53,531 bases of DNA from assembly GCA_902774155.1 (NCBI GenBank), contig CACYHF010000004.1:1-53531 (forward strand), read 5' to 3'. The DNA comes from an uncultured Bacteroidia bacterium. GTDB taxonomy: Bacteria; Bacteroidota; Bacteroidia; Bacteroidales; UBA932. Shown piece after piece: positions 1 to 53,531 of the stretch (its first letter is position 1; every line of letters starts with the position of its first letter). The notes under the pieces are model-generated. The model did not search any database. It had not been told where the DNA came from and saw only the letters and a list, made by a program, of their open reading frames with translations. The position numbers were made by a program, and so were the translations under genes.

Positions 1-1
1 G

Positions 2-809
2 GGCTCCACCTTTACCCTGCGCCTTCCGCTGGTGCAAAAAGGCGCCAGCGTGAGCGAAGGCAAAGCGGCATCGGCCTATACGGAGCGCTACGAGGAGACC
101 TATCTCCGCGAGGACAGCCACAAGCAGGAGGCCGCCAGCCGGGTGAGCGAAAGCGACCGTCCCACCATACTAGTGGTGGACGACAACGCAGACCTTCGCC
201 GCTTCATTGGCACACTGCTGGAAGGCGAATACCGCATTCTGAGCGCCTGCGACGGCCGGGAGGCCTTGGAAAAAGCCACGCGCGAACTGCCGGACCTGGT
301 GGTATCGGACGTGATGATGCCCGTCATGGACGGCTTGGAACTATGCAAGGCGCTCAAGGGGCAGCTGGCCACCAGCCACATCCCCGTCATCCTCCTTACC
401 GCCAAATCGCTGGAAGACCAGCGCGCGGAGGGCTACGATTCCGGTGCCGATGCCTACATTTCCAAGCCCTTCAGCGAACGGGTGCTGCTGGCCGCAGGAG
501 AATGACTTCCTTTCCCGCTTCCGTGCGCTGGTCCGCGAGCACCTGGGAGACGAAAACCTGAGCGTGGAGCAGCTGGGCTCCGACCTGGGCCTCTCGCGCG
601 TGCAACTGTATAGGAAGGTGAAAGCCCTTACCGGCTACTCCCCCGTTGAGCTGGTGCGCATTACGCGCCTGAAAGCGGCGGAACAGTTGCTCAAAACCAC
701 GGACAAAACCGTAGCGGAGGTCGCCTATGCCGTGGGCTTCGGAACGCCGTCCTATTTTTCCAAATGTTTCAAGGAACTCTTTGGGCGCCAACCCGGTGAA
801 AGACGGTAG
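2..809 (+). pseudogene. 3' part of a hybrid two-component system regulator, broken by an out-of-frame deletion
   Basis: The gene enters from the left edge. The first residues (GSTFTLRLPL) are the end of a histidine-kinase ATPase domain. A response-regulator receiver domain follows, with the acidic pair in VVDDNAD, the phospho-acceptor region VVSDVMMPVMDG and the ISKPF lysine; this frame stops at 505. An AraC-type helix-turn-helix domain (FRALVREHLGDENLSVEQLG through SYFSKCFKELFG) is complete but lies in the next frame, from about 494 to 809. In the family a linker of roughly 40 residues separates receiver and AraC domains. Here the receiver ends at ERVLLA and the other frame resumes at QENDFLSRF almost at once, so both linker and frame are lost. 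Intact members sense glycan fragments in the periplasm and activate polysaccharide loci. I cannot tell a true pseudogene from an assembly or base-calling error. Confidence 0.85.
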
Positions 810-824
810 TTTTTGAGGGAAAAA

Positions 825-855
825 TTTGGTTTTCAAAGAAAAAACCGTATCTTTG
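825..855 (+). promoter_or_regulatory. Bacteroidota-type promoter of the rplU-rpmA-serS operon
   Basis: TTTG at 825-828 and TATCTTTG at 848-855 are separated by 19 nt, matching the phylum consensus of TTTG and TAnnTTTG. It lies just after the broken regulator and leaves a leader of about 90 nt before rplU. Confidence 0.8.
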
Positions 856-875
856 CAGTCCATTTTTTGAGATGA

Positions 876-942
876 CCGCTAAGCTCAGGCAAGACCTGCC
901 AGCAAGGGCAGGCGCTTACGGCCCAAAACTTTACTAAGTTTT
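876..942 (+). promoter_or_regulatory. Structured 5' leader of rplU (candidate r-protein autoregulatory RNA)
   Basis: Two helices are visible. The outer is CCG (876-878) plus TAAGC (880-884) pairing with GCTTA (914-918) plus CGG (919-921). The inner is CCTGCC (895-900) with GGCAGG (907-912). A third, AT-rich hairpin, AAAACTT (925-931) with AAGTTTT (936-942), ends six bases before the start codon and could hide the initiation region. Leaders that bind a product protein are known for ribosomal operons; that this one binds L21 is inference. Confidence 0.45.
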
Positions 943-948
943 TGTACA

Positions 949-1260: not shown

Positions 1261-1280
1261 CTTTAAAAGACTGAAAGATT

Positions 1281-1541: not shown

Positions 1542-1544
1542 GAC

Positions 1545-2816
1545 ATGTTAACCCTGAAACTTTTGCGCGAGTCTCCGGATTTTGTAATCCGGAGACTTGC
1601 TGTTAAAAACTTTGACGCCAAGGACATTGTAAACAAAATCATTGTCCTGGACGATCACAGAAAGGCCTTCCAAACCCGCAGCGACTCCTATCTGGCGCAG
1701 CAGAAGAAATATGCTGCCGCCATCGGCCAGCTTATGAAGGAAGGCAAGAAGGAAGAGGCCGAAGCAGCCAAAGAAGAAGTGGCCAAGATGAAAGCCCGCT
1801 CCAGCGAACTGCTGAAAATGGCCGATGAAAACAACGAGAAGCTGAACGAACTCCTGGCCCTGCTGCCCAACATCCCCTGCGATCAAGTTCCTGAAGGAAA
1901 AGGCGCAGAGGACAATGTGGTGGTAAGAATGGGCGGTCCGGAGCCGCAGCTTCCGGAAGGCGCCCTCCCCCATTGGGACCTGGCCAAAAAGTACGATATC
2001 ATCGACTTCGACCTGGGCGTGAAGATTACCGGTGCCGGTTTCCCCGTGTATAAAGGTAAGGGTGCCCGCCTGCAGCGCGCCCTCATCAACTTCTTCCTGG
2101 ACCGCAACACCGCGGCCGGCTACAAGGAAGTGGAACCGCCCGTGCTGGTGAACGCCGCTTCCGGTTTCGGTACCGGTCAGCTGCCGGACAAGGAAGGTCA
2201 GATGTACTTCTGCAACGAGGACAAGTTTTATCTGGTCCCCACCGCCGAAGTTCCCGTAACCAACATTTTCCGGGATGTGATTCTCTCCGAAGACCAGTTC
2301 CCCCAGAAGCTTACGGCCTATACGCCCTGCTTCCGCCGGGAAGCCGGTTCCTATGGCAAAGATGTGCGCGGCCTCAACCGCCTGCACCAGTTCGACAAAG
2401 TGGAGATCGTGCGCATCGAGAAGCCGGAGAACAGCTACGCCGCCCTGGACGAAATGATCGCCCACGTGGAAGGCCTGGTGAACGCCCTGGGACTGAAGTA
2501 TCGCATCCTGCGCCTGTGCGGCGGCGACATGAGCTTCACCTCGGCCATCACCTACGATTTTGAGCTCTGGAGCGCTGCCCAGGGCCGTTGGCTGGAAATC
2601 TCCTCCGTGTCCAACTTCGAGAGCTTCCAGGCCAACCGCCTGAAATGCCGCTACAAGGACGAAAACGGCAAGACCCAGCTGGTCCACACCCTCAACGGCA
2701 GCTCCCTGGCCCTGCCCCGCGTAGTAGCCGCCCTGCTGGAAGACAACCAGAAAGACGGATACATCGAAATCCCGGAGGTCCTCAGACCTTACACAGGTTT
2801 CGACCGCATCGACTAA
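1545..2816 (+). CDS. serS: Seryl-tRNA synthetase
   Basis: A 423-residue class II aminoacyl-tRNA synthetase that charges tRNA-Ser. The N-terminal 110 residues are rich in Lys, Glu and Ala (KEGKKEEAEAAKEEVAKMKA), typical of the antiparallel coiled-coil arm that grips the tRNA long arm. Motif 2 is visible as FRREAGSYGKDVRGLNRLHQ and motif 3 near the C terminus as NGSSLALPRVVAALLE. The length matches bacterial enzymes. It is the last gene of the rplU operon and is followed by a strong hairpin at 2860-2895, which separates it from the convergent sirtuin operon. Confidence 0.97.
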   Translation: MLTLKLLRESPDFVIRRLAVKNFDAKDIVNKIIVLDDHRKAFQTRSDSYLAQQKKYAAAIGQLMKEGKKEEAEAAKEEVAKMKARSSELLKMADENNEKLNELLALLPNIPCDQVPEGKGAEDNVVVRMGGPEPQLPEGALPHWDLAKKYDIIDFDLGVKITGAGFPVYKGKGARLQRALINFFLDRNTAAGYKEVEPPVLVNAASGFGTGQLPDKEGQMYFCNEDKFYLVPTAEVPVTNIFRDVILSEDQFPQKLTAYTPCFRREAGSYGKDVRGLNRLHQFDKVEIVRIEKPENSYAALDEMIAHVEGLVNALGLKYRILRLCGGDMSFTSAITYDFELWSAAQGRWLEISSVSNFESFQANRLKCRYKDENGKTQLVHTLNGSSLALPRVVAALLEDNQKDGYIEIPEVLRPYTGFDRID

Positions 2817-2859
2817 GCGGCGTGCGTGGAGGCAAACGCCTCTGGCACTGTAAGTTATA

Positions 2860-2895
2860 AAAAATCGATTACCCCAAACGGAGTAATCGATTTTT
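2860..2895. terminator. Bidirectional hairpin terminator between serS and the sirtuin gene
   Basis: A perfect 13-bp stem, AAAAATCGATTAC (2860-2872) with GTAATCGATTTTT (2883-2895), encloses a 10-nt loop. A/T runs at both edges supply a U tract in either direction, as suits two convergent genes. Confidence 0.85.
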
Positions 2896-2911
2896 CGTTA
2901 TGATCTGTCTG

Positions 2912-3622
2912 TCAGTCGTTTACCTCCACGAGCTCCACGAACCGCGCCATGCCTTTGGTGGCTACGTCCTGGATAAAGGTGACGCGGGGGTCGGAGATGG
3001 GTACGGGTTTGGGATCGATCACGTAGATAGGGCAGTCGTTGCGCGCATAGCGGTAGAGTCCGGCGGCGGGATAGACCTGCAGGGAGGAGCCCACGATGAG
3101 GAGGATATCGGCCTGTTCCACCAGGTCGATGGCTTTGCCGATATTGGGCACCGCTTCACCGAAAAACACGATATGAGGCCGCAGCTGGCTGCCGTTGGGG
3201 GCCAAATCGCCCAAGATGACGGGCCGATAACCCACGTCGATGACCTCGGCCTCCGATTCCGTGCGGTCGTAGATGCCGTTTTCCGGACGCACCTTGGTGA
3301 GTTCCCCGTGCAGATGCAGCACACGGGTGGAGCCGGCACGTTCGTGCAGGTTGTCCACATTCTGGGTGATGACGTCCACCCGGTAATCCTTCTCCAGCTG
3401 GGCCATAGCCACGTGGGCGGCGTTGGGCTTGGCATCCTTAAGCTGGGCCCGGCGCTGGTTGTAAAACTCCAGCACCAGCTTCCGGTTGCGGTACCAGCCC
3501 TCGATGGAGGCTACGTCGTTCACGTCATACTGTTCCCACAGACCACCTGTGTCGCGGAAGGTGGCGAATCCGCTTTCGGCCGAAACCCCGGCCCCGGTCA
3601 GAATCACTAAATGCTTTTTCAT
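2912..3622 (-). CDS. cobB: NAD-dependent protein deacylase, class III sirtuin (CobB-like)
   Basis: A 236-residue Sir2 protein predicted to remove acyl groups from lysines using NAD+. Visible motifs are GAGVSAESGFATFR (NAD binding), TQNVDNLHERAG, the catalytic His in LHLHGE, and GSSLQVYPAAG. Tyr54 and Arg57 (FYNQRR) match the pair that gives class III sirtuins a preference for succinyl and malonyl groups. The zinc-binding cysteines found in most sirtuins are absent: no Cys follows the catalytic His until near the C terminus. The start at 3622 is preferred over an upstream one because its ATG overlaps the preceding stop as ATGA, indicating translational coupling. It is the last of four coupled genes that begin with the EF-hand protein. 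Confidence 0.9.
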   Translation of the reverse strand: MKKHLVILTGAGVSAESGFATFRDTGGLWEQYDVNDVASIEGWYRNRKLVLEFYNQRRAQLKDAKPNAAHVAMAQLEKDYRVDVITQNVDNLHERAGSTRVLHLHGELTKVRPENGIYDRTESEAEVIDVGYRPVILGDLAPNGSQLRPHIVFFGEAVPNIGKAIDLVEQADILLIVGSSLQVYPAAGLYRYARNDCPIYVIDPKPVPISDPRVTFIQDVATKGMARFVELVEVND

Positions 3623-4809: not shown

Positions 4810-4811
4810 CT

Positions 4812-5960
4812 TTACTCCTTGATCTCAAAATAGTACTTGCGCAACCAATACTCGAACAGCGGGTCCTGAAACAATGGCGCGTCGTTCTGATCAAAGGTGA
4901 GCACTTCCTTTTTCATGAGGGCATCCTTCACGCGTTTCACGTTGGCCGATGAGTTAAGCCCGTACTTGCGGATGACATCGGCCGCACTGAACCGCGTTAC
5001 GCCCTCCAGGGTGGCCTTGAGCAGGTTCACCTGATGCGTGGTGAGACCGTTCACCATTTCCCGGAAACGGGGCGTGTGGAGGGAAATGAGGTCCTCCAGG
5101 GCCTCCACGAACACCGGTTCCATGATGTAGCCGCGACTTTTGGCGTCGCAGATGGAGGCAAAGTTGTTCAGATACCACAGATTCCCCTTGAACAGCCGGC
5201 AGGCTCCCAGGATGAGCTCCTGGTTCACCACTTTGCCGCTGGACAGGAAGCCCCGCTGGATGTGCTCGCAGATCTCACGCTCGGGTATCGGAGTAAGCGG
5301 CACATGTTCCACCACCCGGTGGAAGAGCATTCCTGAGGTAAAAAGAGACCTCATGGCGTTCACCCCGGAGCCGCAGAACACGAACACAAACAGGCGCCGG
5401 TCCCGCTGCTCCCGCAAAACGGCATCCAGGGGGCGCAGGATTACGTCGGGGTCTTCCAGCAAGCCCAGGCTCTGGAATTCGTCCACCACCAGGATCATGC
5501 GGTCACCGCGGTCCGCGGCCAGGCGGAACGGCAGGCGCAGCAGGGCCAGGACATCGTCCCGGTCCAGGTCCCAGCTCAGGGACAGCACCTGGCCGTTCTC
5601 CGAGAAAGCACGAGGGTCGAAGACGAAGTGCGTCCCCTGCAGGTAGCGTTTCACCAGGGCGATGTATTCATCGGCCGAGTTGGCCACCATACGCATCACG
5701 GTGGTTCCCAGGCGCAGGAGGAAGGCCTCCGGTGTGCGCACGTTCAGGGCCGAGAACTGCCCCACATAAAAGGATTTCCCGCCCAGACGCAGCGTGAAAA
5801 GGGTTTGCTGCACCAGCGAGGTTTTCCCGGCTTTGGGCGGTTCCCAGAGGGCTACGTGTTCCCCCTGGGAAAGCAGGTTTCCCAGGAGGGTGATGTCGGC
5901 CTTCCTGCCAATGAACTGCTTGCCGCTTACATACTGGGCGTATGGGAAGGGCGTTTCCAT
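4812..5960 (-). CDS. P-loop ATPase of the archaeal-ATPase/STAND-related type with C-terminal winged helix
   Basis: A 382-residue ATPase. The Walker A region is WEPPKAGKTSLV (residues 39-50), with Pro-Pro where the first glycine of the motif is usual. Walker B is MILVVDEFQ (residues 155-163). The C-terminal third (VTRFSAADVIRKYGLNSSANV, then LFQDPLFEYWLRKYYF) resembles the winged helix and closing PLFEYWLR motif of archaeal-type ATPases, which are often linked to signalling, defence or plasmid systems. No nuclease, protease or other effector domain is fused. Its start overlaps the EF-hand gene stop by one base (TAATG), so it is translationally coupled to that membrane protein. The substrate is unknown. 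Confidence 0.85.
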   Translation of the reverse strand: METPFPYAQYVSGKQFIGRKADITLLGNLLSQGEHVALWEPPKAGKTSLVQQTLFTLRLGGKSFYVGQFSALNVRTPEAFLLRLGTTVMRMVANSADEYIALVKRYLQGTHFVFDPRAFSENGQVLSLSWDLDRDDVLALLRLPFRLAADRGDRMILVVDEFQSLGLLEDPDVILRPLDAVLREQRDRRLFVFVFCGSGVNAMRSLFTSGMLFHRVVEHVPLTPIPEREICEHIQRGFLSSGKVVNQELILGACRLFKGNLWYLNNFASICDAKSRGYIMEPVFVEALEDLISLHTPRFREMVNGLTTHQVNLLKATLEGVTRFSAADVIRKYGLNSSANVKRVKDALMKKEVLTFDQNDAPLFQDPLFEYWLRKYYFEIKE

Positions 5961-23631: not shown

Positions 23632-23642
23632 ACCTGAACGCC

Positions 23643-32883: not shown

Positions 32884-36405
<3,522 letters not shown>

Positions 36406-43182: not shown

Positions 43183-43839
43183 CTATAAGCTAATATTCAA
43201 ACCCAGGCCGATGACATGCTCGGCGGGAGCGTTTTTGAAAGTATAATACATGTAATAGGCTTCCAGCTGGAAAGTCTTGTTAATATCGAAAGTGCAGCCC
43301 ACGTAATGGCGGGTTTTTTTCCACGTTTCCCAGGTGAAAACCTCGATGGCCAGGTAAGGGCTGAAATGGCTCTTGGGGATGGCGTACTGTGCCTTCAGCT
43401 GGGAGCGGAGCACATTGTCCTGCTTCCCTTCGTCCGCCAACCAGTCGTGGACATACCGCTCCCGGAGGGAGACCTTCAGGTTCCCTTGCGTCAGCGTACC
43501 GGTAAGGTTAAATAGGGCCTTGTGCGTAAGGACACCGCCCGGTTCATACAAGAAATCGTAGGCGACATCGGCCTTGAGCCAGGGGAGGATCTTCACACCA
43601 AACGTGGTACGGGTGTACCAACAGTCGAGTTGCTTATACTCGTAGTTGTCGTGCTCAAAGTAAATGGACGCATAGAGGGGGGCCTTCTTGAAATTGTAGC
43701 TCACTTCAATGAACTCCCATCCGCCGTAGGTATTTTTTTTCTCCTCCTGCGCCAAGGCTGGAAGCGTGAAACACAAACAGCTGATTACCAGCAGTTTACG
43801 CAAAATCATGTTGGTGTTTATTACTACCTGATTTTTCAT
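43183..43839 (-). CDS. DUF2490-type outer-membrane beta-barrel protein
   Basis: A 218-residue secreted protein with a signal peptide cut at LPALAQ. The mature part consists of alternating strands with aromatic girdles (WEFIEVSYNFKKAPLYASIYFEHDNYEYKQ, in sections, then FQLEAYYMYYTFKN), ending in a terminal aromatic-free GLGLNISL strand. This is the look of DUF2490 barrels, whose role is unclear; a passive pore is possible. The ATG at 43809 (MILRKLLVIS) would give a tighter signal peptide than the one at 43839; both are in frame. It carries palindromic element B in its signal-peptide region and element D just before its start. Confidence 0.8.
   Translation of the reverse strand: MKNQVVINTNMILRKLLVISCLCFTLPALAQEEKKNTYGGWEFIEVSYNFKKAPLYASIYFEHDNYEYKQLDCWYTRTTFGVKILPWLKADVAYDFLYEPGGVLTHKALFNLTGTLTQGNLKVSLRERYVHDWLADEGKQDNVLRSQLKAQYAIPKSHFSPYLAIEVFTWETWKKTRHYVGCTFDINKTFQLEAYYMYYTFKNAPAEHVIGLGLNISL
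43775..43797. repeat. 23-bp palindromic element, copy B (in the DUF2490 signal peptide)
   Basis: AAACAGCTGATTACCAGCAG then TTT: about 18-19 of 23 bases match. It is followed by ACGCAAAAT, as in copy E. The coding strand reads KLLVISCL. Confidence 0.65.
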
Positions 43840-45235: not shown

Positions 45236-47800
45236 TTATTCGTTCCAAATACTGTCGGAGAAATCCAACATCCAATGCCAGTCGATGGCGGCGATGCCGT
45301 GGCCCTGGTCACGCCGGACATACCCGATCCGGGGGCCGATGGCCGCCGTATCATAATCGGCCGGCCAGGCTACCGCCGGCATGCCTTTTTCTCCCAGGAA
45401 GGTCCACACCGGAGAGGCGGCCTGCAGGGCCAGGAATTCTCCCTTGGTGTCGAACCAGGGCTTGTCGAAGCCTTCGATCAGCAGGGCGCGGGGCGCCACG
45501 CAAGCGAGCAGCAGATGCTGGTCAAAGGGCATGGAAGCCGTATCGTAGGCGTACTGGTCGTAGGCGCGGCAGAACCAGTGCCGGAAGGAGGAGACCTCCG
45601 TGGCGATCTTCTCGCCGTAGTCGCGTTTGGCCAGCGGAGCGCCGCCGCCACCCGTCTGGACGGGCACCACCACGGGGATCCTTTCGTCAAAGGCCCCCGC
45701 CAGCAGGGCGGCTTTGCCCAGGCGGGAGTAGCCCGTGAGCACCACCCGGTTCTGGTCCAGCGCAGGGTCCTGCACAATCATGTCCATGCCCCGCATCAGG
45801 CCCCACGCCCAGGCGGCCAGAGCGGTAGTATTGTCAGTCTTTTCCGGATCCCGGGGTCCCCAGAGGTCGAACACCCCGGTATAGGCGAAGGTATCCTGCA
45901 GGATGGCGCCGTCTTTTTCCACCAGCGGATCCGGATCCGGGGAAATATCACAGTAACAGGCGGCAACCAGCGCGTAACCCCTTGCCAGCAAGGTGCTTAC
46001 AGGAAAAACCGTGTCGTTGCCGTCCGGGTTGAACTTGCCGCGGGTGCGCTGGGAGGCCTTGTGCGGCGTTTCCCGCAGCCAGGATTCCGTGACCAGGATT
46101 TCCTTATCTTCCAGCAGCTCGTGGTTGCCCGTATAATTCAGTAACAAAATGGCGGGACAGGGGCCTTGCACCTGGGTGGGGATCAGCTCCAGCCAGTCGA
46201 TATGAGGGCCGGTATGATCGGCCCGGAACCACATGCGCACCTGCCTGCGCCGGGCAAAACCCGCCAGCGTGGTGCCTTCCTCCAGCGTTTCCAGGAAGAT
46301 ATCGGCCGAAGGGGGCATCTGCCCGTACATCTGCCGCTGGAAGATATCCAGAATCTCTTTCCTCCGCTCCGGCCACTGCTTCCGGGAACGCAGCTTGCGG
46401 CCGTCGGCAAAGCATAGCGGGTCTTCCAGGGTATAGGGCGGGATGGCCGATTCGTCGTAATTCACCGTTGCATAGGCCCTGGTGCGCACTTCGTTCTGCT
46501 GCACGGCCGACCAAACGCCCGGAACGGACAGGACCTGACGGGCCTCCGCCGTGCCCTTGAGCATCTCCACCACGTCTTTTCCTTCCAGCGTAACGTTCAG
46601 CAGTTCATACTGGTCCGACAACTCCATATCCAGCACCTGCCGGCACTCTACGCGGATATCCTGAAGGGCGATGTCGTTGCAGACGGAAACAGGCATGTTT
46701 TCCCGCTCCTCCATCTGGTAATACTGCGTCCAGGGCCGGATGCGCAGGATGGAGCCCACCTTGCCCGCCACGTCTTCCACGCGGATGAATTCGTAATGCT
46801 GCGGGGTGTCGGGGCGCAGTTTCAGGTGCAGGACATTATAGGCGGCCTCCGAAATGCAGTGCCGGAGGATGACATTCCGGTCCTCGACGGATTCGCTGCC
46901 CAGGGTGAGGCAGGCGTGGGTCTGGCCGAAGGTACAGTCCTCCACGATGATGTCGTTGTTGGGACCGTTCTCCGCGGCTTTATCGGCCCAGGTGCCCTTA
47001 CCGCCCTTGAGCACTACCCCGTCGTCGCAGACATCCATGTAGCAGCCCTTTACCAGCACGTCATGGCAGTTGTCCAGGTCGATGGCATCGGTGCTGTAGC
47101 CCACTACCTCGCCGCTGGAGGGGGAGGTGATGTGCAGGTCCAGAAAGCGCAGGTGATGACTGCGGTAGGCGTGGTTGGTCCAGAAGGGGCTGTCTTTCAT
47201 GCGCAGGTCCTGTACCGTCACGTTGGCGCTGTTGGCGATGTACACCAGGCGGGGCCGCTGCCCGTCCTTGTTGATGGCGTCTTTCTTCCAGGACCAGCGG
47301 ATCTTCATTTCCCGCCAGAACTCCGTTCCGCTGCCATCCAGGAGGCCCGGACCGCCCAGCACAAAACCGTCCACACCTTCGATGTTGACGAGGGCCGGAA
47401 AATACCGGCAGGTCTGTCCCTCGATGCGGGTGGTGGTGAGCGGATAGTCCTTCACCCGGTCCGACCCCATCAAGGTTCCTTCCACCCACAGGTTCGTTCC
47501 CTGGGGGAAGTGCAGGGCTCCGCTGCGGAACACCCCTTGGGGCACCACGATAACCCCGCCGCCCTGCGTGGCTGCCAGGTCGATGACCTGCTGGATGGCA
47601 CCGGTCTGGACATCGGGCAGGTTTGCCTTCACGCCATAGTCCGTGAGGACATACTGACGTCCCAGGTTGTCCAGGGATTCCTTCCGGGCCTTGCCAAACC
47701 AGGCCGATATCTTCTTCCCGTCCGGGAAACGCTCCTGTGCAGACAAGGGCACTTCCAGGGCCAGGAAGCACAGGCAGCTGAGGATCAATAGTTTTCTCAT
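45236..47800 (-). CDS. Fusion of GH28 polygalacturonase-type domain and CE15-type esterase
   Basis: An 854-residue secreted enzyme with a signal peptide (cut near PLSAQ). Residues about 45-430 are a GH28-like right-handed beta-helix: DYGVKANLPDVQTGAIQQVI, GGGVIVVPQGVFRSGALHF, the catalytic-type Asp motifs STDAIDLDN and VCDDGVVLKGG, then HACLTLGSES. Residues about 470-854 are an alpha/beta hydrolase like CE15 glucuronoyl esterases, with nucleophile Ser in LTGYSRLGKAALLAG and His in RRDQGHGIAAIDWHW. One chain therefore could cut a galacturonan backbone and remove an ester on a uronic acid. The reading frame is continuous. It is six bases after the GH43 gene, and 43 bases separate it from the phosphoesterase. 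Confidence 0.88.
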   Translation of the reverse strand: MRKLLILSCLCFLALEVPLSAQERFPDGKKISAWFGKARKESLDNLGRQYVLTDYGVKANLPDVQTGAIQQVIDLAATQGGGVIVVPQGVFRSGALHFPQGTNLWVEGTLMGSDRVKDYPLTTTRIEGQTCRYFPALVNIEGVDGFVLGGPGLLDGSGTEFWREMKIRWSWKKDAINKDGQRPRLVYIANSANVTVQDLRMKDSPFWTNHAYRSHHLRFLDLHITSPSSGEVVGYSTDAIDLDNCHDVLVKGCYMDVCDDGVVLKGGKGTWADKAAENGPNNDIIVEDCTFGQTHACLTLGSESVEDRNVILRHCISEAAYNVLHLKLRPDTPQHYEFIRVEDVAGKVGSILRIRPWTQYYQMEERENMPVSVCNDIALQDIRVECRQVLDMELSDQYELLNVTLEGKDVVEMLKGTAEARQVLSVPGVWSAVQQNEVRTRAYATVNYDESAIPPYTLEDPLCFADGRKLRSRKQWPERRKEILDIFQRQMYGQMPPSADIFLETLEEGTTLAGFARRRQVRMWFRADHTGPHIDWLELIPTQVQGPCPAILLLNYTGNHELLEDKEILVTESWLRETPHKASQRTRGKFNPDGNDTVFPVSTLLARGYALVAACYCDISPDPDPLVEKDGAILQDTFAYTGVFDLWGPRDPEKTDNTTALAAWAWGLMRGMDMIVQDPALDQNRVVLTGYSRLGKAALLAGAFDERIPVVVPVQTGGGGAPLAKRDYGEKIATEVSSFRHWFCRAYDQYAYDTASMPFDQHLLLACVAPRALLIEGFDKPWFDTKGEFLALQAASPVWTFLGEKGMPAVAWPADYDTAAIGPRIGYVRRDQGHGIAAIDWHWMLDFSDSIWNE

Positions 47801-47806
47801 ACGCGT

Positions 47807-49198
47807 TTACTCAAATACCATCCAATCGATGTCGAAGAGTTCCGGTCTTTCCTTCCAGGATTCTCCGGGGCCGCTGAACATGAGCCAGAGGGCATGAGGA
47901 CCCGCTGCTGCATTTTCCACCTCGCAGGACAGGGTCTGCCATTCACCCTTTCCTGCAGGCACGTCCAGCCAGGCGATCTGGCCGGAGAAAGACTGGTCCT
48001 GGGCCACGGTAATGGTGCCGCCGGCCAGGGCGCGCACCCGAACCGTCAGTTTCTTAGTCTCAGGGCCGAAAGCCACATATTTCCAGGCGGCCTTGCTGCC
48101 GTCCAGAATGCCGGAAACGATTTCCCGGTCTGTGCTGCCATCCATCAGACGGATGTGCGGTCCGCCGTTGAAGAGGCATGCGCGTGCGGCATCGATGGTT
48201 TCATAGGCCGATAACGGCGCTCCGGCGCCCTGGGAGGTCATTTCCACTTCGTTGATAGTGCCATCGGCATTGAAGGTAATGGGCTCGATGCAGGCCTTGC
48301 GGAGCTTGCTGGTATGGTGGGTGGAACGATGATACAACACGTACCATTGCCCATTGAACTCCACCACGGAACCGTGGTTGTTCCAGACGTCGGGATCGCA
48401 GCCGTTGCTGTCCACGATCACGCCCTTGTATTCATAAGGGCCGAAGACATGGCGGGACATGGAATAGCCGATGCAGGTGGGCATATTCTGGCGGCTGATA
48501 TCGGCATACACGTAGTAATACCAGCCGTCGCGCTTGAACACAAAGCTGCCCTCGTGGAAATAATGGTCCTTTTCCGTGACGATACCTTCGTGCAGGGTGG
48601 ACATGTCCAGCGTCTTCATATCCGGGTTCAATTTGGCACCCCTCGCGCTGAACTGGTCCCAGAAATAGTAGGCCTGTCCGTCGTCGTCAATGAACACGGT
48701 TGGGTCAATGCCGGTGATGTCGCCGATACGCTGCCCGCTGTGGAAGGGCCCCGCCGGGCTGTCGGCCTCGGCCACGCCTTCGGTCCAGTCGGACATGTCG
48801 TAGTAGAGGTAATACTTTTCATCCTTTTCTGCAATGTCCGGAGCGTAAAGGTCGGCGTCCGCATAGGAAACTTCGTCATATTCTCCCCTGGTGGCGAATA
48901 CATTGGGGTGCAGGGTCCAGTGGAGGGCATCCTCCGAGGAAAGCATATGGTGATAGGGCGAGCACCAGAGATCGGTGGTCAGGTCCAGAGAACAGGCCAC
49001 ATACAGCTTCCCGTCTATTACTTTGGCGCTTGGATCGGCCATGTACACACCCATGGGGCAGATGGGATTGTGACCCAGGTTCCCAGCCGGAACCGGTTCG
49101 CGGCCAGGTTCCAAACGGACCGTCACATCCTGGCTGCCCTGAGCGCACGAAACTGCCAGCAAGAGGGCCAAAATAATGAGCAAAGAATTTCTTTTCAT
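47807..49198 (-). CDS. GH43 glycosidase lipoprotein with C-terminal CBM6-like domain
   Basis: A 463-residue lipoprotein (lipobox VSC). The five-bladed propeller carries all three catalytic acids: base Asp in YMADPSAKVIDGKLYV, modulator Asp in ITGIDPTVFIDDDG, and acid Glu in YFHEGSFVFKRDG. From about residue 335 a beta-sandwich (AARACLFNGGPHIRLMDGST, WKYVAFGPETKKLTVRVRA) resembles a family 6 carbohydrate-binding module. GH43 members are mostly alpha-L-arabinofuranosidases, beta-xylosidases or galactosidases, fitting arabinan or arabinogalactan side chains. It is four bases after the DUF4838 gene. It makes a useful comparison for the second GH43 in the cluster, which lacks the base. Confidence 0.92.
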   Translation of the reverse strand: MKRNSLLIILALLLAVSCAQGSQDVTVRLEPGREPVPAGNLGHNPICPMGVYMADPSAKVIDGKLYVACSLDLTTDLWCSPYHHMLSSEDALHWTLHPNVFATRGEYDEVSYADADLYAPDIAEKDEKYYLYYDMSDWTEGVAEADSPAGPFHSGQRIGDITGIDPTVFIDDDGQAYYFWDQFSARGAKLNPDMKTLDMSTLHEGIVTEKDHYFHEGSFVFKRDGWYYYVYADISRQNMPTCIGYSMSRHVFGPYEYKGVIVDSNGCDPDVWNNHGSVVEFNGQWYVLYHRSTHHTSKLRKACIEPITFNADGTINEVEMTSQGAGAPLSAYETIDAARACLFNGGPHIRLMDGSTDREIVSGILDGSKAAWKYVAFGPETKKLTVRVRALAGGTITVAQDQSFSGQIAWLDVPAGKGEWQTLSCEVENAAAGPHALWLMFSGPGESWKERPELFDIDWMVFE

Positions 49199-49202
49199 AG
49201 TA

Positions 49203-51440
49203 TCAGATAGTTAAACATAGGTCTGTCTCTTTTCCATCGGGGCCCGTGAGCCGGACAGAGAGAATTTGTCCTTCACAATCTTCAAAATAGCGGAGTTCCA
49301 GGTGATGGAAGCCTTTCTCCAACAACAAATAGCAGAAGCCGGTTTCCGGAGAATGGGAGCCGTCCAGCTCCAGGACCCGTTTTCCGTCCATCAGGAGCAC
49401 CGTCCCGTCGTCAGAGGTGATCCGGAACTGGTACAAGCCCTCTTCGGTAGCTTCCAGCCAGCCTTCGAACACATAGCCGAAGTGATCGGCCTCGGGACGG
49501 GTATCGATGGCTATCTCCTCCATAGTCCCCTGCTCCACCACTTTGCCTTTGCGAAGCATCTCCTCCGTGGACATGAAATTCCCTTCGTAGCGGGTAAAGC
49601 GGACGCCTTTCTTTGTGGGATTCGCCGCCATTGCCGGCATTAGCTCACTCTTCTCAATTTCCTTCCGGATCCTGTCATAGTCGGCCAGCAGGTCTTTTGC
49701 GGTCATCGTTCCACCCGCCCAGACGCCTTCGGCCAGGCGGTTCATACCCTCGCGTTCCACCACGCGACGGACCAGTTCATCGGCCTGTTCCCGAAAACCC
49801 TGCAACGGGTTTTTGACCATTTGCAGGAAGCAGAGCGGCATTTCGGCGGTTTCCACCCGGTCATACAGGGTCTGGTTATCGGCCACCGCCTCCTTGGCCT
49901 GGGCGAAAATGGCCCGGCCTTCCCGGATGAACTCTAACGTAAACATGGTGTCGGAAGGGTGTACATAGCAGTTGCCGTGTACTCCGGGGCGGCGCAGGAT
50001 GCGTTCCTCCAGGTCCAGATAGTCCCGGATGTAACGGCCGGCGGGGCCGTAATACCCGTCCGTAAAATCGCGGATGAGGGCATCTACATCGGCATCGGGA
50101 TTCCACATGAGCTTGGACAGCAGCCAGGTGCGCATTTCCCGGAGTTCGCAGGAAACCGTCTGATAATCCCCTTCTTCCAGGATGCCGATAGCATGGTTGT
50201 CCCGGAAATCCTGAATATGCGGCTGCAGGGTTTTCCAATTGGCCACCGGCAGGCAGTACTGGGCAAAGTCTGTCACATAATCCCAGATGTACAGATGCGG
50301 GGCCAGGGTGCCCCAGTCTTCCAAGTCCTTCAGGAAGGCCAAGTTCTGCTCACATTCGTCGTAGCCGTGCCACATGCAGCACTCGATGCTGCACAGACGG
50401 ACTACCACGTTTTCACGGGGCTGGATGTTCTTGGGCGCATGGCGCGTATATTGGTAGGCAAAGGTGCCGATGAACTTGTCCGGGAATTCGTCCCTGACGG
50501 CATCGGCCACCTGGTTCACGAACCAGATCATCACGCCGGACTGCCCGCCGTATTGTTCGGCAAGCGCCTCGCAGGCATCGCACTGGCAGAACAGCTGATT
50601 GTCGTTCTGCTCCACCGAATAGATGAGAAAGTCCGGCTGCTCCCGCATAATCTTGCGAACGCTTTCGATGGTAATCTGCAACACCTCTGGATTGGACAGA
50701 CAGGGCTGACCGTAACCGCCGTAGCGTTTGCCGTCCCGCAGGCAGAAGTATTCCGGATGGGTGGAGAAATATTTGCCCACCGGAACATGGGTTCCCAAAG
50801 CGTGAACGCCCCAGTAACCTTCGGCGCTGCCGGGAATGGTTCCTGTCCCGTCAGGCGAGGGAATCCGCACGAAATTATTGCGCAGGCGGGCCGAGAACAC
50901 CGGTTGGGTCCGCGGATCCAGGTAGCAATTGTCGCGGATCCGGATGCCAGGAGCCTCCTGGCAGCGTAGTTTTCCAAAACGCCAGCTGTCTTTATGCGGC
51001 GCCACGCTAACTTTCAGCGAATACCAGCGGCAGTCCAGTTCGTTCTCCAGGAAGGCATATACGGCATACAGCGTACCCCGGGGGCCATTTCCCCGGAAAT
51101 GGATATCGGCACCCTCCGTGAAATAGACAAAGGAGTCGTCCCTCCCCTGCCGGTCTTCCGTTTCCAGGATCAGCCGATTCCCGGCGGGAGCCTCCGCAGT
51201 GATGGGAATCCGCACACCGCTCACCTGCTCCAGCCAAGTCTGCAACTCCAAGGCAGCATAACGCTCAATCTCCGTAGCCTGGCTGTCCAGTACAATGGTA
51301 TAGGAAGACTCGCCGTCTTCAAACAGCGTATTCTGGGGCGAACAGGAGTTAGCCCCTCCCAGGAGCGTGGGGACTAAGCAGCTGATTATTAACGATTTAC
51401 ACAAAATCGATTGTACAATTTCAAGCAATCGTTTTTTCAT
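49203..51440 (-). CDS. DUF4838 (alpha-glucuronidase-like) protein with C-terminal PA14 domain
   Basis: A 745-residue exported protein. The N domain (YAALELQTWLEQVSGVRIPI, LYAVYAFLENELDCRWYS) is the type found before GH67 and GH20 barrels. The central TIM-barrel-like DUF4838 region includes FLIYSVEQNDNQLFCQCDAC and VVRLCSIECCMWHGYDECEQ. The last 120 residues form a PA14 domain (HFGYVFEGWLEATEEGLYQF, SDDGTVLLMDGKRVLELDGS) closely alike in layout to that of the GH92 protein at 17246. Family function is unproven; a uronic-acid or hexosamine glycosidase is likely. The signal region contains palindromic element C, and the start follows element G. Confidence 0.85.
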   Translation of the reverse strand: MKKRLLEIVQSILCKSLIISCLVPTLLGGANSCSPQNTLFEDGESSYTIVLDSQATEIERYAALELQTWLEQVSGVRIPITAEAPAGNRLILETEDRQGRDDSFVYFTEGADIHFRGNGPRGTLYAVYAFLENELDCRWYSLKVSVAPHKDSWRFGKLRCQEAPGIRIRDNCYLDPRTQPVFSARLRNNFVRIPSPDGTGTIPGSAEGYWGVHALGTHVPVGKYFSTHPEYFCLRDGKRYGGYGQPCLSNPEVLQITIESVRKIMREQPDFLIYSVEQNDNQLFCQCDACEALAEQYGGQSGVMIWFVNQVADAVRDEFPDKFIGTFAYQYTRHAPKNIQPRENVVVRLCSIECCMWHGYDECEQNLAFLKDLEDWGTLAPHLYIWDYVTDFAQYCLPVANWKTLQPHIQDFRDNHAIGILEEGDYQTVSCELREMRTWLLSKLMWNPDADVDALIRDFTDGYYGPAGRYIRDYLDLEERILRRPGVHGNCYVHPSDTMFTLEFIREGRAIFAQAKEAVADNQTLYDRVETAEMPLCFLQMVKNPLQGFREQADELVRRVVEREGMNRLAEGVWAGGTMTAKDLLADYDRIRKEIEKSELMPAMAANPTKKGVRFTRYEGNFMSTEEMLRKGKVVEQGTMEEIAIDTRPEADHFGYVFEGWLEATEEGLYQFRITSDDGTVLLMDGKRVLELDGSHSPETGFCYLLLEKGFHHLELRYFEDCEGQILSVRLTGPDGKETDLCLTI
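51376..51398. repeat. 23-bp palindromic element, copy C (in the DUF4838 signal peptide)
   Basis: AAGCAGCTGATTATTAACG then ATTT: about 16-17 of 23 bases match. It is followed by ACACAAAATCGATTG, the same flank as copy A. The coding strand reads KSLIISCL. Confidence 0.6.
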
Positions 51441-51463
51441 AATTCGTTGATTATTAATAATTT
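51441..51463. repeat. 23-bp palindromic element, copy G (intergenic)
   Basis: AATTCGTTGATTATTAATAA then TTT: about 17 of 23 bases match. It fills the gap between the second GH43 stop and the DUF4838 start and is followed by ATCTCCACGG, close to the flank of copy H. Confidence 0.55.
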
Positions 51464-51475
51464 ATCTCCACGGCG

Positions 51476-52960
51476 CTACTCAAAGCGAAAGTATTTGACA
51501 CGGAAGGGTGCCGTTTTGGCCACCAGATAGACCGCCTCTTTGCCGGAAGCATCCACTTGCAGCGGGACGGTCTGCTCTTTCCACTTCCAGCCGGTGTCCG
51601 GAATCTCCATCGTAGCCATGACAGGGCCGTCCGGAGCGCCTTTCCGCAACTCCAGCTGCCCGCCGGGCTGTCCGGATTTAACGCACACGGTAAGGGTGGC
51701 CGGTGCCTGGGAGCAATCCACATAGCGGTAACCGGTCCACTGGCCATCGGCCTGGAAGAAGATGACGGGATACTCTTTCCTTTTCAGCTCCACCATCTCT
51801 GCACCGGCTCGGCCCAGGGAGTATTCCACGGCGGCGGATGCCTGTATCTTGTCGCCCGGCCGGAAAGCGCCCCGAATACCGGAGGAAGACATTTTCACCT
51901 CCCGGATGGTACCGTCTTCGTTGAATTCCAACGGGTCCAGACAGGCAACGCGCGTGAGGGCCAGACCGGGAACACTGCGGTGATACTGCACCACCCACTG
52001 CCCGTCCCAACACTCGAAGGAGCCGTGGACATTGCCTGTATTGGGATACTCGTGGTTGGTCACAATGAGACCCTGGTAGGTATAGGGGCCCAGCGGCTCT
52101 TTAGCCGTGAGATAGGCCATCCGGGTAGGAATCCAGCCGGTATCCACTATCCGGCCCGTATTCTGGATGTAAATGTAGTAATACGTATCGCCCCGTTTGC
52201 GCAGCGACGGCCCCTCGAAGGGATCGTTGTCCTTGGGCATCACCGGGGTGAGGTCCCGCACGGTTTCCGGCAGGATGCGGGAATAATCGGCCGGATCCAA
52301 CTGCGCTACGATGAACTTGGGAAGGGCCAGGTACACTTTTCCGTCGTCATCCACCAGGATGCCCGGATCGATGTGGCCCAGTTCCTCCCCGTTCAGGGTA
52401 ACGGTGCGGGCGTTCGTGAACGGACCTTCCGGACTGTCGGCATCCAGGATGAAGACTTTGTCGTTGTTGGTGCAGGTGACCATGTGGAACTTCCCGGTCT
52501 GCGGATCCTGGAACACGTCCGGTGCCCACAGGCGGATGCCACCGCCCTTTACCTCTTCAGGGATATCCCTCAGGTTCAGCGCTTCCCCCGCATCGGTCCA
52601 GTGCAGCAGGTCGTCGGACCAGAGCACGTGGTAATTGTCGGAGCACCATTCCCGCCGGCCATCCGGTCCATAGCCGTCGTAGTTGTCCCGCGAGCCGAAG
52701 ATATACATGCGACCGTCAAAAACATGAATCCAGACATCGCCGGCCGATAACGCGAGGACCTCTCCCCGCTTGTTCACCTGCGCCACCGCTTCATCGCCGG
52801 AAAACCACTCCAACTTCCGCGGGGGTATTCCTTTAAGATTCAGTTGAAAGCTCTGGCCCTCATCCAGCATAGTGGCCGCCCGATCCAGTTTCCAGGGCCC
52901 GGCCGGCTGCTGCTGGCAGGAAAGCGCCAGCGCAAGGAATATCCAAGGAGCTATCTTCAT
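51476..52960 (-). CDS. GH43-like lipoprotein, probably missing the catalytic base
   Basis: A 494-residue lipoprotein (lipobox LSC). Residues about 35-75 look like a bacterial Ig-like (Big_2) domain (LKGIPPRKLEWFSGDEAVAQ, GEVLALSAGDV). The chain then passes straight into the first GH43 strand (IHVFDGRMYIFGSRD). In GH43 that strand is preceded by the base Asp in a DPS motif, and in Big_2 the domain needs about 20 more residues after ALSAG. Both are absent, as if an in-frame deletion had joined them near residue 76. The other two acids remain: GHIDPGILVDDDG and DPFEGPSLRKRG. A C-terminal beta-sandwich follows. The ATG at 52960 is used; a TTG lies nine bases upstream. Confidence 0.85.
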   Translation of the reverse strand: MKIAPWIFLALALSCQQQPAGPWKLDRAATMLDEGQSFQLNLKGIPPRKLEWFSGDEAVAQVNKRGEVLALSAGDVWIHVFDGRMYIFGSRDNYDGYGPDGRREWCSDNYHVLWSDDLLHWTDAGEALNLRDIPEEVKGGGIRLWAPDVFQDPQTGKFHMVTCTNNDKVFILDADSPEGPFTNARTVTLNGEELGHIDPGILVDDDGKVYLALPKFIVAQLDPADYSRILPETVRDLTPVMPKDNDPFEGPSLRKRGDTYYYIYIQNTGRIVDTGWIPTRMAYLTAKEPLGPYTYQGLIVTNHEYPNTGNVHGSFECWDGQWVVQYHRSVPGLALTRVACLDPLEFNEDGTIREVKMSSSGIRGAFRPGDKIQASAAVEYSLGRAGAEMVELKRKEYPVIFFQADGQWTGYRYVDCSQAPATLTVCVKSGQPGGQLELRKGAPDGPVMATMEIPDTGWKWKEQTVPLQVDASGKEAVYLVAKTAPFRVKYFRFE

Positions 52961-52973
52961 AATAGTCAATTTA

Positions 52974-53531
52974 TTATCTTTTTATGCCACGCGACTCCAC
53001 GAAGACATTCTTCACGGCGTCCAGATAGCCATAGCCGTAAACATTGTCCGGCTGGAGGTAACTGGTTTCGGTCCATTCGTTCCAGGAGTTGATGGTGATG
53101 AGCGGATGCAGGCCGGGACGGGCGTCCACCCAGGCCTTGGCCCGGCGGAGGGCTTCCTCAAAACGCTCGGGCGTATTCTCCTTCACCACGGCGCTTTCGC
53201 CGAAACGGGGGCTGTTGTCCCAGCCGATGGACACGTGCGGATAGTACGGGATGGTGAATTCGGCATCCAGTTTGTCCCATTCTTCATAGGCCCGGTTCAG
53301 GATGTTCTGATAATCGTCGTCCATCCAGATGAAGTGGCAGAACTGGTAATGGGACATACTGTTGAAGCCCAGCCCACGGATGAAATCCTCCCGGGGCCGG
53401 CCGGCCTTCACCTTGGCTTCATCCACACCGCTGTAGTTGAACTGGCTGTCCCACATAGTGAACTGCAGTTCCAAATCCGGGAAACCGGCCTTTTTCACCT
53501 CTTTCCGGAACCAGGCCAGGGCATCCCGGGC
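52974..53531 (-). CDS. GH99/WbsX-like glycan-active protein, 5' end beyond the window
   Basis: Only the C-terminal 185 residues are present; the reading frame continues past the right edge. The fragment contains SWNEWTETSYLQPDNVYGYG and YYPHVSIGWDNSPRF, hallmarks of the WbsX domain group related to GH99 endo-mannosidases and often found in Bacteroidales glycan loci. The conserved Asn-Glu-Trp-Thr-Glu stretch probably carries the catalytic acid. The first codons suggested by a GTG at 53498 are inside the domain, so no start is visible here. It is 13 bases before the second GH43 gene, so the operon begins outside the window. Confidence 0.85.
   Translation of the reverse strand, partial: ARDALAWFRKEVKKAGFPDLELQFTMWDSQFNYSGVDEAKVKAGRPREDFIRGLGFNSMSHYQFCHFIWMDDDYQNILNRAYEEWDKLDAEFTIPYYPHVSIGWDNSPRFGESAVVKENTPERFEEALRRAKAWVDARPGLHPLITINSWNEWTETSYLQPDNVYGYGYLDAVKNVFVESRGIKR

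Follow-up and report, generated by a model that had tools for sequence, protein, structure and literature searches.

GGCCGAT, a heptamer in strong excess throughout an uncultured Bacteroidales genome, may serve as a self-recognition mark for DNA exchange or repair

The window and its GGCCGAT copies

The window, by which we mean the whole stretch of 53,531 nt analysed here, lies on contig CACYHF010000004.1 of assembly GCA_902774155.1, an uncultured Bacteroidales MAG of 2.43 Mb. It carries two genes at 949-1260 and 1281-1541 that, judged by eye from the sequence, we take to be those of ribosomal proteins L21 and L27, and an ORF at 23571-24449 (+) that was overlooked by the coding-score gene caller. 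Distributed along it are exactly 96 copies of GGCCGAT, read as 48 GGCCGAT and 48 ATCGGCC on the plus strand (Table 1), where a first-pass annotation had estimated about 90 (47 and 46 by orientation) at a GC content of about 57% (58.3% when measured). That annotation put the chance level near ten copies; 100 dinucleotide shuffles of the window gave a mean of 13.1 and a maximum of 22, and a third-order Markov model expected 22.1 (z 15.7), both means far below the observed number, with GGCCGAT at the top among the 7-mers scored. Its companion statement that GGCCGAA and GGCCGAC are far rarer holds for GGCCGAC (15 copies; GGCCGAG has 14) but fails for GGCCGAA, with 50 copies versus 21.6 expected. 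Both ribosomal protein genes indeed have zero copies, but they also have zero counted dipeptide opportunities, and their lack of the word is therefore no evidence of avoidance.

Table 1. Positions of GGCCGAT in the window by strand, from an exact pattern count over its whole length, with two composite sites.
Feature	Position	Strand	Remark
Palindromic overlap ATCGGCCGAT	14681..14690		one of 63 in genome
Close inverted pair ATCGGCC-C-GGCCGAT	24390..24404		within ORF 23571-24449 (+)
GGCCGAT	70..76	-	
GGCCGAT	1722..1728	-	
GGCCGAT	1820..1826	+	
GGCCGAT	3107..3113	-	
GGCCGAT	3222..3228	+	
GGCCGAT	4944..4950	+	
GGCCGAT	4977..4983	-	
GGCCGAT	5670..5676	-	
GGCCGAT	6428..6434	-	
GGCCGAT	6860..6866	-	
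GGCCGAT	7265..7271	-	
GGCCGAT	7505..7511	-	
GGCCGAT	7541..7547	+	
GGCCGAT	7675..7681	+	
GGCCGAT	7721..7727	+	
GGCCGAT	9341..9347	-	
GGCCGAT	10385..10391	-	
GGCCGAT	10613..10619	+	
GGCCGAT	10960..10966	+	
GGCCGAT	11000..11006	+	
GGCCGAT	12086..12092	+	
GGCCGAT	12149..12155	-	
GGCCGAT	12171..12177	+	
GGCCGAT	12764..12770	+	
GGCCGAT	13919..13925	+	
GGCCGAT	14681..14687	-	
GGCCGAT	14684..14690	+	
GGCCGAT	16349..16355	-	
GGCCGAT	16454..16460	+	
GGCCGAT	16985..16991	+	
GGCCGAT	18502..18508	-	
GGCCGAT	19225..19231	+	
GGCCGAT	19342..19348	-	
GGCCGAT	19729..19735	+	
GGCCGAT	20251..20257	+	
GGCCGAT	21247..21253	-	
GGCCGAT	23511..23517	+	
GGCCGAT	24390..24396	-	
GGCCGAT	24398..24404	+	
GGCCGAT	24573..24579	+	
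GGCCGAT	24997..25003	-	
GGCCGAT	25122..25128	+	
GGCCGAT	26346..26352	+	
GGCCGAT	27963..27969	+	
GGCCGAT	28126..28132	+	
GGCCGAT	28309..28315	-	
GGCCGAT	28419..28425	+	
GGCCGAT	28569..28575	+	
GGCCGAT	29705..29711	-	
GGCCGAT	29747..29753	-	
GGCCGAT	31115..31121	+	
GGCCGAT	31678..31684	+	
GGCCGAT	32739..32745	+	
GGCCGAT	33330..33336	+	
GGCCGAT	34366..34372	+	
GGCCGAT	34429..34435	-	
GGCCGAT	34463..34469	+	
GGCCGAT	34657..34663	-	
GGCCGAT	35782..35788	-	
GGCCGAT	35917..35923	+	
GGCCGAT	37444..37450	-	
GGCCGAT	37612..37618	-	
GGCCGAT	38545..38551	-	
GGCCGAT	39428..39434	-	
GGCCGAT	39827..39833	+	
GGCCGAT	40406..40412	-	
GGCCGAT	40448..40454	+	
GGCCGAT	40745..40751	+	
GGCCGAT	41465..41471	-	
GGCCGAT	41534..41540	-	
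GGCCGAT	41689..41695	-	
GGCCGAT	42040..42046	-	
GGCCGAT	43054..43060	+	
GGCCGAT	43133..43139	+	
GGCCGAT	43206..43212	+	
GGCCGAT	43567..43573	-	
GGCCGAT	44170..44176	-	
GGCCGAT	44379..44385	+	
GGCCGAT	44911..44917	-	
GGCCGAT	45055..45061	+	
GGCCGAT	45334..45340	+	
GGCCGAT	45356..45362	-	
GGCCGAT	46217..46223	-	
GGCCGAT	46301..46307	-	
GGCCGAT	46445..46451	+	
GGCCGAT	46982..46988	-	
GGCCGAT	47702..47708	+	
GGCCGAT	48206..48212	+	
GGCCGAT	49034..49040	-	
GGCCGAT	49485..49491	-	
GGCCGAT	49779..49785	-	
GGCCGAT	49878..49884	-	
GGCCGAT	50502..50508	-	
GGCCGAT	51746..51752	-	
GGCCGAT	52286..52292	-	
GGCCGAT	52742..52748	+	

The same picture holds in a sample of 453,531 bases from this genome (the window together with twenty 20-kb stretches), where 758 copies stand against a third-order Markov expectation of 197 (z 40). 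The word again ranks first, as it did in the window, when 7-mers are ranked in the way the first-pass annotation had proposed, and the recount of 96 is not below the 40 or so copies at which that annotation would have given up its claim. Across the whole MAG there are 3,748 copies (1,907 and 1,841), approximately one per 650 bp, versus 297 (142 and 155) for the reversed-pattern control. The observed/expected ratio is 4.37 for the exact word and 1.15, 0.94 and 0.99 with one, two and three mismatches, the one-mismatch forms being only slightly in excess. These counts confirm that the excess is genuine, and bigger than first claimed. Spacing is random (CV 1.008), density is uniform (counts per 5 kb have a mean of 8.37 and a variance of 8.74) and the flanks carry almost no information. 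Close inverted pairs are not enriched, with 32 gaps below 25 bp versus 31.4 expected; 16 of these are the palindromic overlap itself, found at 63 places (126 copies) among the 3,748 genome-wide, and 10 of the other 16 are inverted.

Codons, strands and conservation

Within coding sequence of the 453-kb sample we found 726 copies, in near-equal orientations relative to the gene (375 versus 351). All six codon phases are occupied, as had been noted, but unevenly: G|GCC|GAT accounts for 346 copies, A|TCG|GCC for 193, ATC|GGC|C for 139 and the remaining three for 48. This concentration of 678 of the 726 copies in three phases, together with a slight surplus of Ser-Ala (O/E 1.13 versus 0.94 in motif-free relatives; Ala-Asp 1.18 versus 1.13), is what codon-pair or dipeptide preference as the sole cause could draw upon. 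However, synonymous shuffles returned only 149-168 copies, the upper figure from a shuffle that preserved the protein, codon usage and neighbouring bases, and because these fall so far short of 726, codon preference is excluded, in line with the first-pass opinion that it would not suffice. The near-equal orientations and the excess in noncoding DNA speak against it as well, and we give this cause virtually no chance. In strict noncoding DNA of this genome there are 8 copies versus 1.3 expected (5 versus 1.0 under the strictest mask), in five relatives 26 versus 6.9, and in six motif-free relatives 4 versus 3.7; the noncoding excess is 4-6-fold, on small counts.

At synonymous sites all seven positions are pulled toward the motif base, with odds ratios of 1.9-38.9, compared with 0-2.4 in six motif-free congeners. 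No strand bias was seen in the 453-kb sample when strand was assigned by the GC skew of each 20-kb piece and of the window (390 copies on the G-rich strand versus 368, p 0.45), nor in any of ten contigs tested (p 0.15-1.0). Conserved genes are not enriched, at 0.37-0.43 copies per opportunity across five conservation classes. Of six comparisons of site-by-site conservation, five lay above the composition-matched mean and one below it (23 of 124 sites, 0.19 versus 0.28), and orthologous sequences without the motif differ from GGCCGAT at many positions, not one. The excess is shown not to depend on codons, on strand, on the direction of transcription or on how conserved a class of genes is, and the force behind its spread acts on DNA, not on proteins.

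Relatives and candidate machinery

Among 400 congeners surveyed, GGCCGAT reaches 1,500 copies or more in 56; of the remainder some prefer GCCGATG or TGCCGATG and some have no excess. The preferred words of neighbouring species, namely GGCCGAT(A), GCCGATG or TGCCGATG, share the single core GCCGAT, and we accordingly describe the recognition site as asymmetric, with this core, G or T as left neighbour and A or G as right neighbour. A fit to phylogeny was seen for motif density alone, on a single-gene quick tree. With its graded dialects in hundreds of genomes of one genus, the motif lends itself to a comparative search for the reader protein.

ComEC (PF03772) was present in all 34 genomes searched, including 12 of 12 GGCCGAT-poor ones, and shows no link with the motif. 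Four of its loci were read, two each from dense and poor genomes, and all four encode a short version (356-373 aa) to which the Competence domain alone matched. The one pilus family searched, the pilus/secretion ATPase PF00437, was over cut-off in none of 16 motif genomes and in one of 8 poor ones, while 15 of the 16 have at least one weak match below it. All 20 genomes searched for PF12705 (PDDEXK_1, AddB-like), 7 of 7 poor ones among them, have a match over cut-off; the copy in this genome gives partial matches to AddB models far below their cut-offs, in a stretch that ends inside the gene. Vsr had no match in this genome, and fewer of the dense genomes carry it (5 of 27) than of the poor ones (13 of 22). 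Among the three methyltransferase families searched in motif-dense genomes, C5 (PF00145) was found in 6 of 18, N6_N4 (PF01555) in 1 of 14 and Eco57I (PF07669) in 5 of 14. All three were absent over cut-off in 5 of 14 (this genome, G000, and G081, G242, G334 and G339, incomplete MAGs at 90-97% completeness). Vsr and these three families appear not to be required for the motif.

Explanations and known systems

Of the options first listed, an uptake-type signal fits the pattern best, and single-step mutational bias is excluded because all seven positions are pulled. We tentatively favour, at somewhat less than an even chance, a reading in which GGCCGAT is an asymmetric site for recognising self-DNA, propagated through biased uptake and recombination in the manner of uptake sequences but with no type IV pilus involved. 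A drive acting on the whole motif would spread and maintain GGCCGAT in part of this Cryptobacteroides-like genus, and we infer that it may be self-DNA recognition during natural transformation: a putative surface or periplasmic DNA receptor would favour motif-bearing fragments, and homologous recombination after uptake would turn near-motifs into motifs faster than mutation destroys them. The system would resemble that of Neisseriaceae and Pasteurellaceae with their DNA uptake sequences, minus the type IV pilus, like other transformable Bacteroidota. The copy number, of the same order as the thousands described for uptake-sequence genomes by Frye (2013), was counted in its favour, as were the shortfall of the synonymous shuffles, the pull on all seven positions, the noncoding excess and the occurrence of ComEC in every genome searched; an excess that falls with mismatch load is also described for uptake sequences by Bakkali (2007), and dialects between related species by Frye (2013). 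According to published accounts, transformation of P. gingivalis requires ComEA and ComEC, its T4P-like conjugation pilus reportedly being unused for uptake, Riemerella requires ComEC, DprA, ComF and RecA as well as proteins that lack known homologues, and R. columbina favours its own DNA. Counted against uptake were the equal presence of ComEC in poor genomes, its short form at the four loci read, the lack of a pilus ATPase over cut-off, of an inverted-pair excess (paired uptake sequences at terminators are described as common in Neisseriaceae; Frye 2013) and of conserved-gene enrichment, the one comparison below mean conservation, and the slight one-mismatch excess. We found no report of uptake or competence in this genus in print.

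The main rival, which we consider unlikely, is a Chi-like AddAB site, at which trimming of broken DNA halts and recombination starts, so that a self mark accumulates. The word is asymmetric and genome-wide, an AddB-like gene is universal in the genomes searched, and Chi in AddAB-bearing firmicutes varies in size and composition in the account of Rocha (2005); yet poor relatives carry the same gene and strand skew is lacking. The first-pass doubt about Chi on the ground of balanced strands stands in that respect, but the AddB-like gene weakens it. Chi sites are typically 5-8 nt and asymmetric, and that of E. coli is strand-skewed; we know of no Chi with an accumulation as strong as 726 copies per 1,802 dipeptide opportunities. 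Less likely again is that an abundant protein which organises the chromosome binds GGCCGAT and must be loaded chromosome-wide, with dispersed copies under selection. Uniform density, equal across gene classes, would suit it and dialects could track an altered DNA-binding domain, but spacing is random rather than even, we found no candidate protein, and each of several thousand redundant sites would need similar selection.

A little below this we rank a methylation-coupled repeat in the manner of HIP1, whose target a methyltransferase and mismatch repair would create and keep. Elhai (2015) describes matching methyltransferases alongside cyanobacterial HIP1 and its alternates, and some motif-dense genomes carry such enzymes; against this, HIP1 is palindromic where few copies here are, five dense genomes lack the three families over cut-off, and Vsr is distributed the wrong way. 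We regard an unselected, context-dependent mutation or repair bias as improbable: random spacing and indifference to gene conservation fit a function-blind process, but such a bias would need a different base change at each of several motif positions to pull all seven, and would have to be switched off in congeners; orthologues without the motif, moreover, differ at many of its positions.

Should GGCCGAT be an uptake sequence, it would show that signals of this kind have arisen in the absence of a type IV pilus. The wider proposal, to which we give about a one-in-three chance, is that Bacteroidota possess pilus-independent self-DNA uptake with an uptake sequence of their own, that the GCCGAT dialect series (GGCCGATA, GGCCGATG, TGCCGATG) restricts gene exchange to kin in this genus, and that the putative receptor shifts specificity between close species. 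To the best of our knowledge few kinds of strongly driven genome word exist (uptake sequences, HIP1 and Chi), and none was described in Bacteroidota among the matches listed from the open-access literature outside bioRxiv.

Very-short-patch repair by Vsr could likewise favour a single word genome-wide, but would pull one position and not seven, and no match to it was found in this genome. Chi sites of RecBCD or AddAB are similarly short, asymmetric and dispersed, with an AddB-like gene at hand, but differ in strand skew and in strength of excess. HIP1 and the alternate HIPs are dense dispersed words with lineage-specific alternates, their density being near one per 1 kb according to Elhai (2015) versus one per 0.65 kb here, but HIP1 is palindromic and tied to a methyltransferase whereas GGCCGAT is asymmetric. 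The uptake sequences of Neisseriaceae (DUS) and Pasteurellaceae (USS) are 10-12-mers, or 9-mers with flanks, whereas GGCCGAT has seven bases and nearly uninformative flanks, no close inverted-pair excess and no pilus ATPase over cut-off. It is like them in being present by the thousand, on either strand and in coding as well as noncoding DNA, in an excess that drops with mismatches, and in dialects among related species.

Abundance, distribution and dialects of GGCCGAT

The heptamer GGCCGAT and its complement ATCGGCC were found 96 times in the window (both strands summed), as compared to a mean of 13.1 and a maximum of 22 in 100 dinucleotide shuffles and to 22.1 expected under a third-order Markov model, where GGCCGAT was the top over-represented word among the 7-mers scored. 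It also ranked first in 453,531 bases made up of the window and 20 stretches of 20 kb from the source genome, with 758 copies versus 197 from the Markov model (z 40). In the whole source MAG (2,428,135 bases in 88 contigs, 92% complete, 3.6% contamination) we counted 1,907 + 1,841 copies versus 142 + 155 for a reversed-pattern control, which is a rough one, given that genome G036 shows 632 versus 87 yet has no excess over the synonymous null (12 versus 17.8). The strong over-representation on both strands reported in the first-pass annotation is therefore borne out, as is the leading rank under the Markov check that it had set. Judged by sequence similarity, the host is probably a member of the Bacteroidales from a Cryptobacteroides-like genus: its seryl-tRNA synthetase protein shares 92% identity with the one from MAG RUG487 and 79% with the one from Candidatus Cryptobacteroides intestinipullorum, and further near matches come from the rumen or from other gut samples of ruminants.

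Of the 400 genomes of the genus, 56 carry 1,500 copies or more (a hand count that includes the source genome), the remaining genomes forming a gradient that falls as low as the reversed control, and no count approached those of the dense genomes among 24 genomes from 24 other families of the order. A genome from another family (G053, 2.7 Mb) carries 474 copies versus 34 for the reversed control, which might mark the presence of the signal in a second lineage or reflect composition alone.

Synonymous shuffles of 22 sampled genomes (coding samples of between 13 and 421 kb) revealed dialects set by the bases flanking a GCCGAT core, G or T on the left and A or G on the right. GGCCGAT was the first 7-mer in the source genome and in G289, G393, G204 and G212, G327 was led by GCCGATA together with GGCCGAT, GCCGATG led in G097, G078, G133 and G370, and G188 was led by CCGATGC and GCCGATG with GGCCGAT at expectation (4 versus 3.7). 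Weaker excesses that did not rank first were seen in G389 and G322, the GCCGAT excess was absent in G335, G091, G013, G063, G279, G163 and G036, and the coding samples of G003 and G173 are too small for a decision either way. Whole-genome counts of GGCCGAT and GCCGATG are consistent with these dialects (3,900 and 2,432 in G289; 868 and 2,250 in G188; 1,164 and 2,387 in G370). A quick tree built on one gene (49 rows) placed the window in an 11-row group (SH-aLRT 92) with the named loci whose density, taken from the 12-21 kb surrounding the gene, reached 1 copy per kb; sparser loci sit in that group as well. Four stretches of G097 (L121-L124) hold octamers that include TGTGGTTT, GTTGTGGT, CTACATCA and TAGAAAAG, each 30-37 times, which, if adjacent, are perhaps pieces of one CRISPR repeat.

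That no described signal of this sequence is known in Bacteroidota agrees with the open-access literature (bioRxiv excluded): among the matches listed for GGCCGAT itself none concerned, by title, a genome-wide bacterial word, and no such motif appeared among those listed for heptamers of Bacteroidetes or for uptake sequences of Bacteroidetes or Bacteroidales. The same literature gave no description of transformation in Cryptobacteroides.

A DNA-level signal of seven bases

Coding sequence holds 726 copies, as opposed to means of 149, 156 and 168 under three synonymous codon shuffles (genome-wide, within genes, and with neighbouring bases fixed), and the phase A-TCG-GCC alone accounts for 193 copies versus 8-16. 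Codon and codon-pair bias are thereby ruled out, in keeping with the earlier judgement that codon-pair preference does not suffice. When the motif base was compared with its synonyms at every codon third position within the motif, all seven positions in the source genome were biased toward the motif base (odds ratios 1.9 to 38.9), the corresponding values being 0 to 2.4 in a pool of six motif-free relatives (G335, G091, G013, G063, G279 and G163). Since all seven positions are drawn to the motif, a mutational or repair bias acting on one base, such as deamination or Vsr activity, cannot produce the excess, and the mutational explanation first offered is excluded in its one-base form.

Strict noncoding DNA contained 8 copies versus 1.3 expected in the source genome (small counts), 26 versus 6.9 in five relatives that share its dialect, and 4 versus 3.7 in six motif-free relatives. 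Three stricter masks of the source genome gave 8 versus 1.5, 8 versus 1.3 and 5 versus 1.0, GGCCGAT standing outside the six top 7-mers under the strictest; a looser count of 30 versus 5.4 was set aside because its mask had let missed genes in. The two orientations relative to genes are nearly equal (375 versus 351 copies), which rules out an RNA-level signal. GGCCGAT is a DNA-level signal.

Observed-to-expected ratios for 0, 1, 2 and 3 mismatches were 4.37, 1.15, 0.94 and 0.99, the most tolerated one-base changes being GGCCGAA (2.03) and TGCCGAT (2.01). GGCCGAA, roughly 2-fold enriched even over the synonymous null (396 versus 195 in the window and the 20 stretches), is a weak variant of the signal. 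The 30 bases on each side hold little information beyond slight effects within about 3 bases and a clear departure at position +8 alone, where C occurs at 0.47 of expectation, and extended flanks are thus ruled out. A general avoidance of GATC in the window (294 versus 522 expected) may account for this depletion. CGATCG is strongly avoided as well (18 versus 163 in the 453 kb of window and stretches), both avoidances being as expected under restriction or modification pressure.

Gaps between copies follow an exponential distribution (CV 1.008) and the number of copies in 5-kb bins is Poisson-distributed (mean 8.37, variance 8.74), which excludes both even spacing and clustering. Close inverted pairs are not in excess: 32 gaps fall below 25 bp versus 31.4 expected, 16 of them being the palindromic overlap ATCGGCCGAT, and 10 of the other 16 are inverted. 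This overlap occurs at 63 places genome-wide, so that about 97% of copies are non-palindromic and a palindromic signal is ruled out. Other palindromes (TCCGGA, GAATTC, TGCGCA and GATATC) are 1.6-1.9-fold over-represented in the window and the 20 stretches, the excess of TCCGGA extending to motif-free congeners (G335, for example), and GTGCGCAC was counted 14 times over both strands of the window versus 1.4 expected, which, it being palindromic, corresponds to 7 places.

Placement in genes and turnover between relatives

The 726 coding copies compare with 1,802 opportunities, defined here as particular dipeptides (Ala-Asp, Ser-Ala, and Ile-Gly followed by Pro, His, Gln, Arg or Leu), with 48 of the copies lying in other phases. 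Copies per opportunity ranged from 0.37 to 0.43 across five gene conservation classes built on partial relative genomes, with no difference between conserved and non-conserved genes, and a restriction to conserved genes is thus ruled out; 8 of 345 genes combined at least 6 opportunities with zero copies. The ribosomal protein genes of the window do lack the motif, as noted at first, but offer zero opportunities, and avoidance is dismissed. Decile counts along genes (window and the 20 stretches) were 55, 100, 62, 57, 66, 86, 90, 72, 59 and 59, peaking at 10-20% of gene length.

Regions singled out during the analysis
Location	Strand	Feature	Content
window:31165-51440	minus	Run of polysaccharide-degradation genes, resembling a cluster for pectin use	Two rhamnosidases, GH2 with ricin-type lectin domains, GH9, GH28 with glucuronyl-esterase domain, GH43, DUF4838 (scan of all but four intervening genes)
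L101:10000-20000 (source genome)		Thinnest 10 kb for the motif	Presumably genes for lipoprotein-like and transposase-like products, assigned by eye

GGCCGAT copies are both gained and lost between relatives. In pairwise alignments at 78-81% identity, retention was higher than the mean of 7-mers of the same GC count in five of six comparisons and lower in one, and the sequences replacing the motif were changed at many motif positions.

Motif copies kept between the source genome (G000) and two relatives
Comparison	Copies kept	Mean of matched 7-mers
G000 in G424	39/89	0.27
G424 in G000	39/68	0.29
G000 in G425	23/124	0.28
G425 in G000	23/55	0.26
G424 in G425	23/46	0.40
G425 in G424	23/34	0.38

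Candidate machinery and mechanism

Vsr, the methyltransferases, PF00437, ComEC and the AddB-like PF12705 (20/20 genomes) do not explain presence versus absence of the motif; in draft genomes such as these, the absence of a single gene weighs little.

Candidate genes in dense (at least 1,500 GGCCGAT), intermediate and poor genomes (close to the reversed control; motif-free by the synonymous null for six)
Gene	Dense	Intermediate	Poor	Source genome
Vsr	5/27	2/7	13/22	none
C5 methyltransferase	6/18	3/6	8/16	none
N6_N4 over cut-off	1/14	3/5	4/10	none
Eco57I over cut-off	5/14	5/5	8/10	none
PF00437 pilus/secretion ATPase over cut-off	0/12	0/4	1/8
ComEC	17/17	5/5	12/12

For a methylation motif, another option raised at the outset, the results bear on three candidate partners: C5, N6_N4 and Eco57I are all missing over the cut-off in 5 of 14 dense genomes, which rules them out as necessary as far as MAG completeness permits. 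A congener, G351, has eleven C5-methyltransferase matches. The suggested look at competence genes did find ComEC in 34/34 genomes, but equally in dense and poor ones; at four loci read (L171-L174, four genomes) it is a short form of 356-373 aa with the Competence domain as its sole Pfam match, and its neighbourhood in four relatives, where some have what we take by eye to be acetate kinase and ApbE-like genes, gave no lead. Weak PF00437 matches below the cut-off occur in 15 of 16 motif genomes. The sole match over the cut-off in 24 genomes is a strong ATPase (E 1.4e-120) on stretch L245 of the motif-free congener G335.

The signal would call for a process that reads all seven bases as a unit, whichever way they point and whatever the gene, and whose specificity would shift between close species. 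Biased uptake followed by recombination would fit these properties best, and we hold an uptake role for GGCCGAT tentatively, at somewhat less than an even chance. Its main rival is a Chi-like role in recombination by AddAB. The balanced strands had been taken to argue against a Chi-like site, and the absence of skew is upheld: the G-rich strand carries 390 copies versus 368 on the other (p 0.45), with no strand bias in any of ten contigs (p 0.15-1.0). This counts against the Chi-like role, short of excluding it, and it stays the main rival. As for biased uptake, other Bacteroidota transform without a known pilus route. P. gingivalis is reported to need ComEA and ComEC and to make no use of its T4P-like conjugation pilus in uptake (PMC11532111). 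In Riemerella anatipestifer, ComEC, DprA, ComF and RecA are listed as essential, along with proteins whose function is unknown (PMC8459023), and R. columbina, for which the question of an uptake sequence is left open, is reported to take up its own DNA preferentially (PMC7965970).
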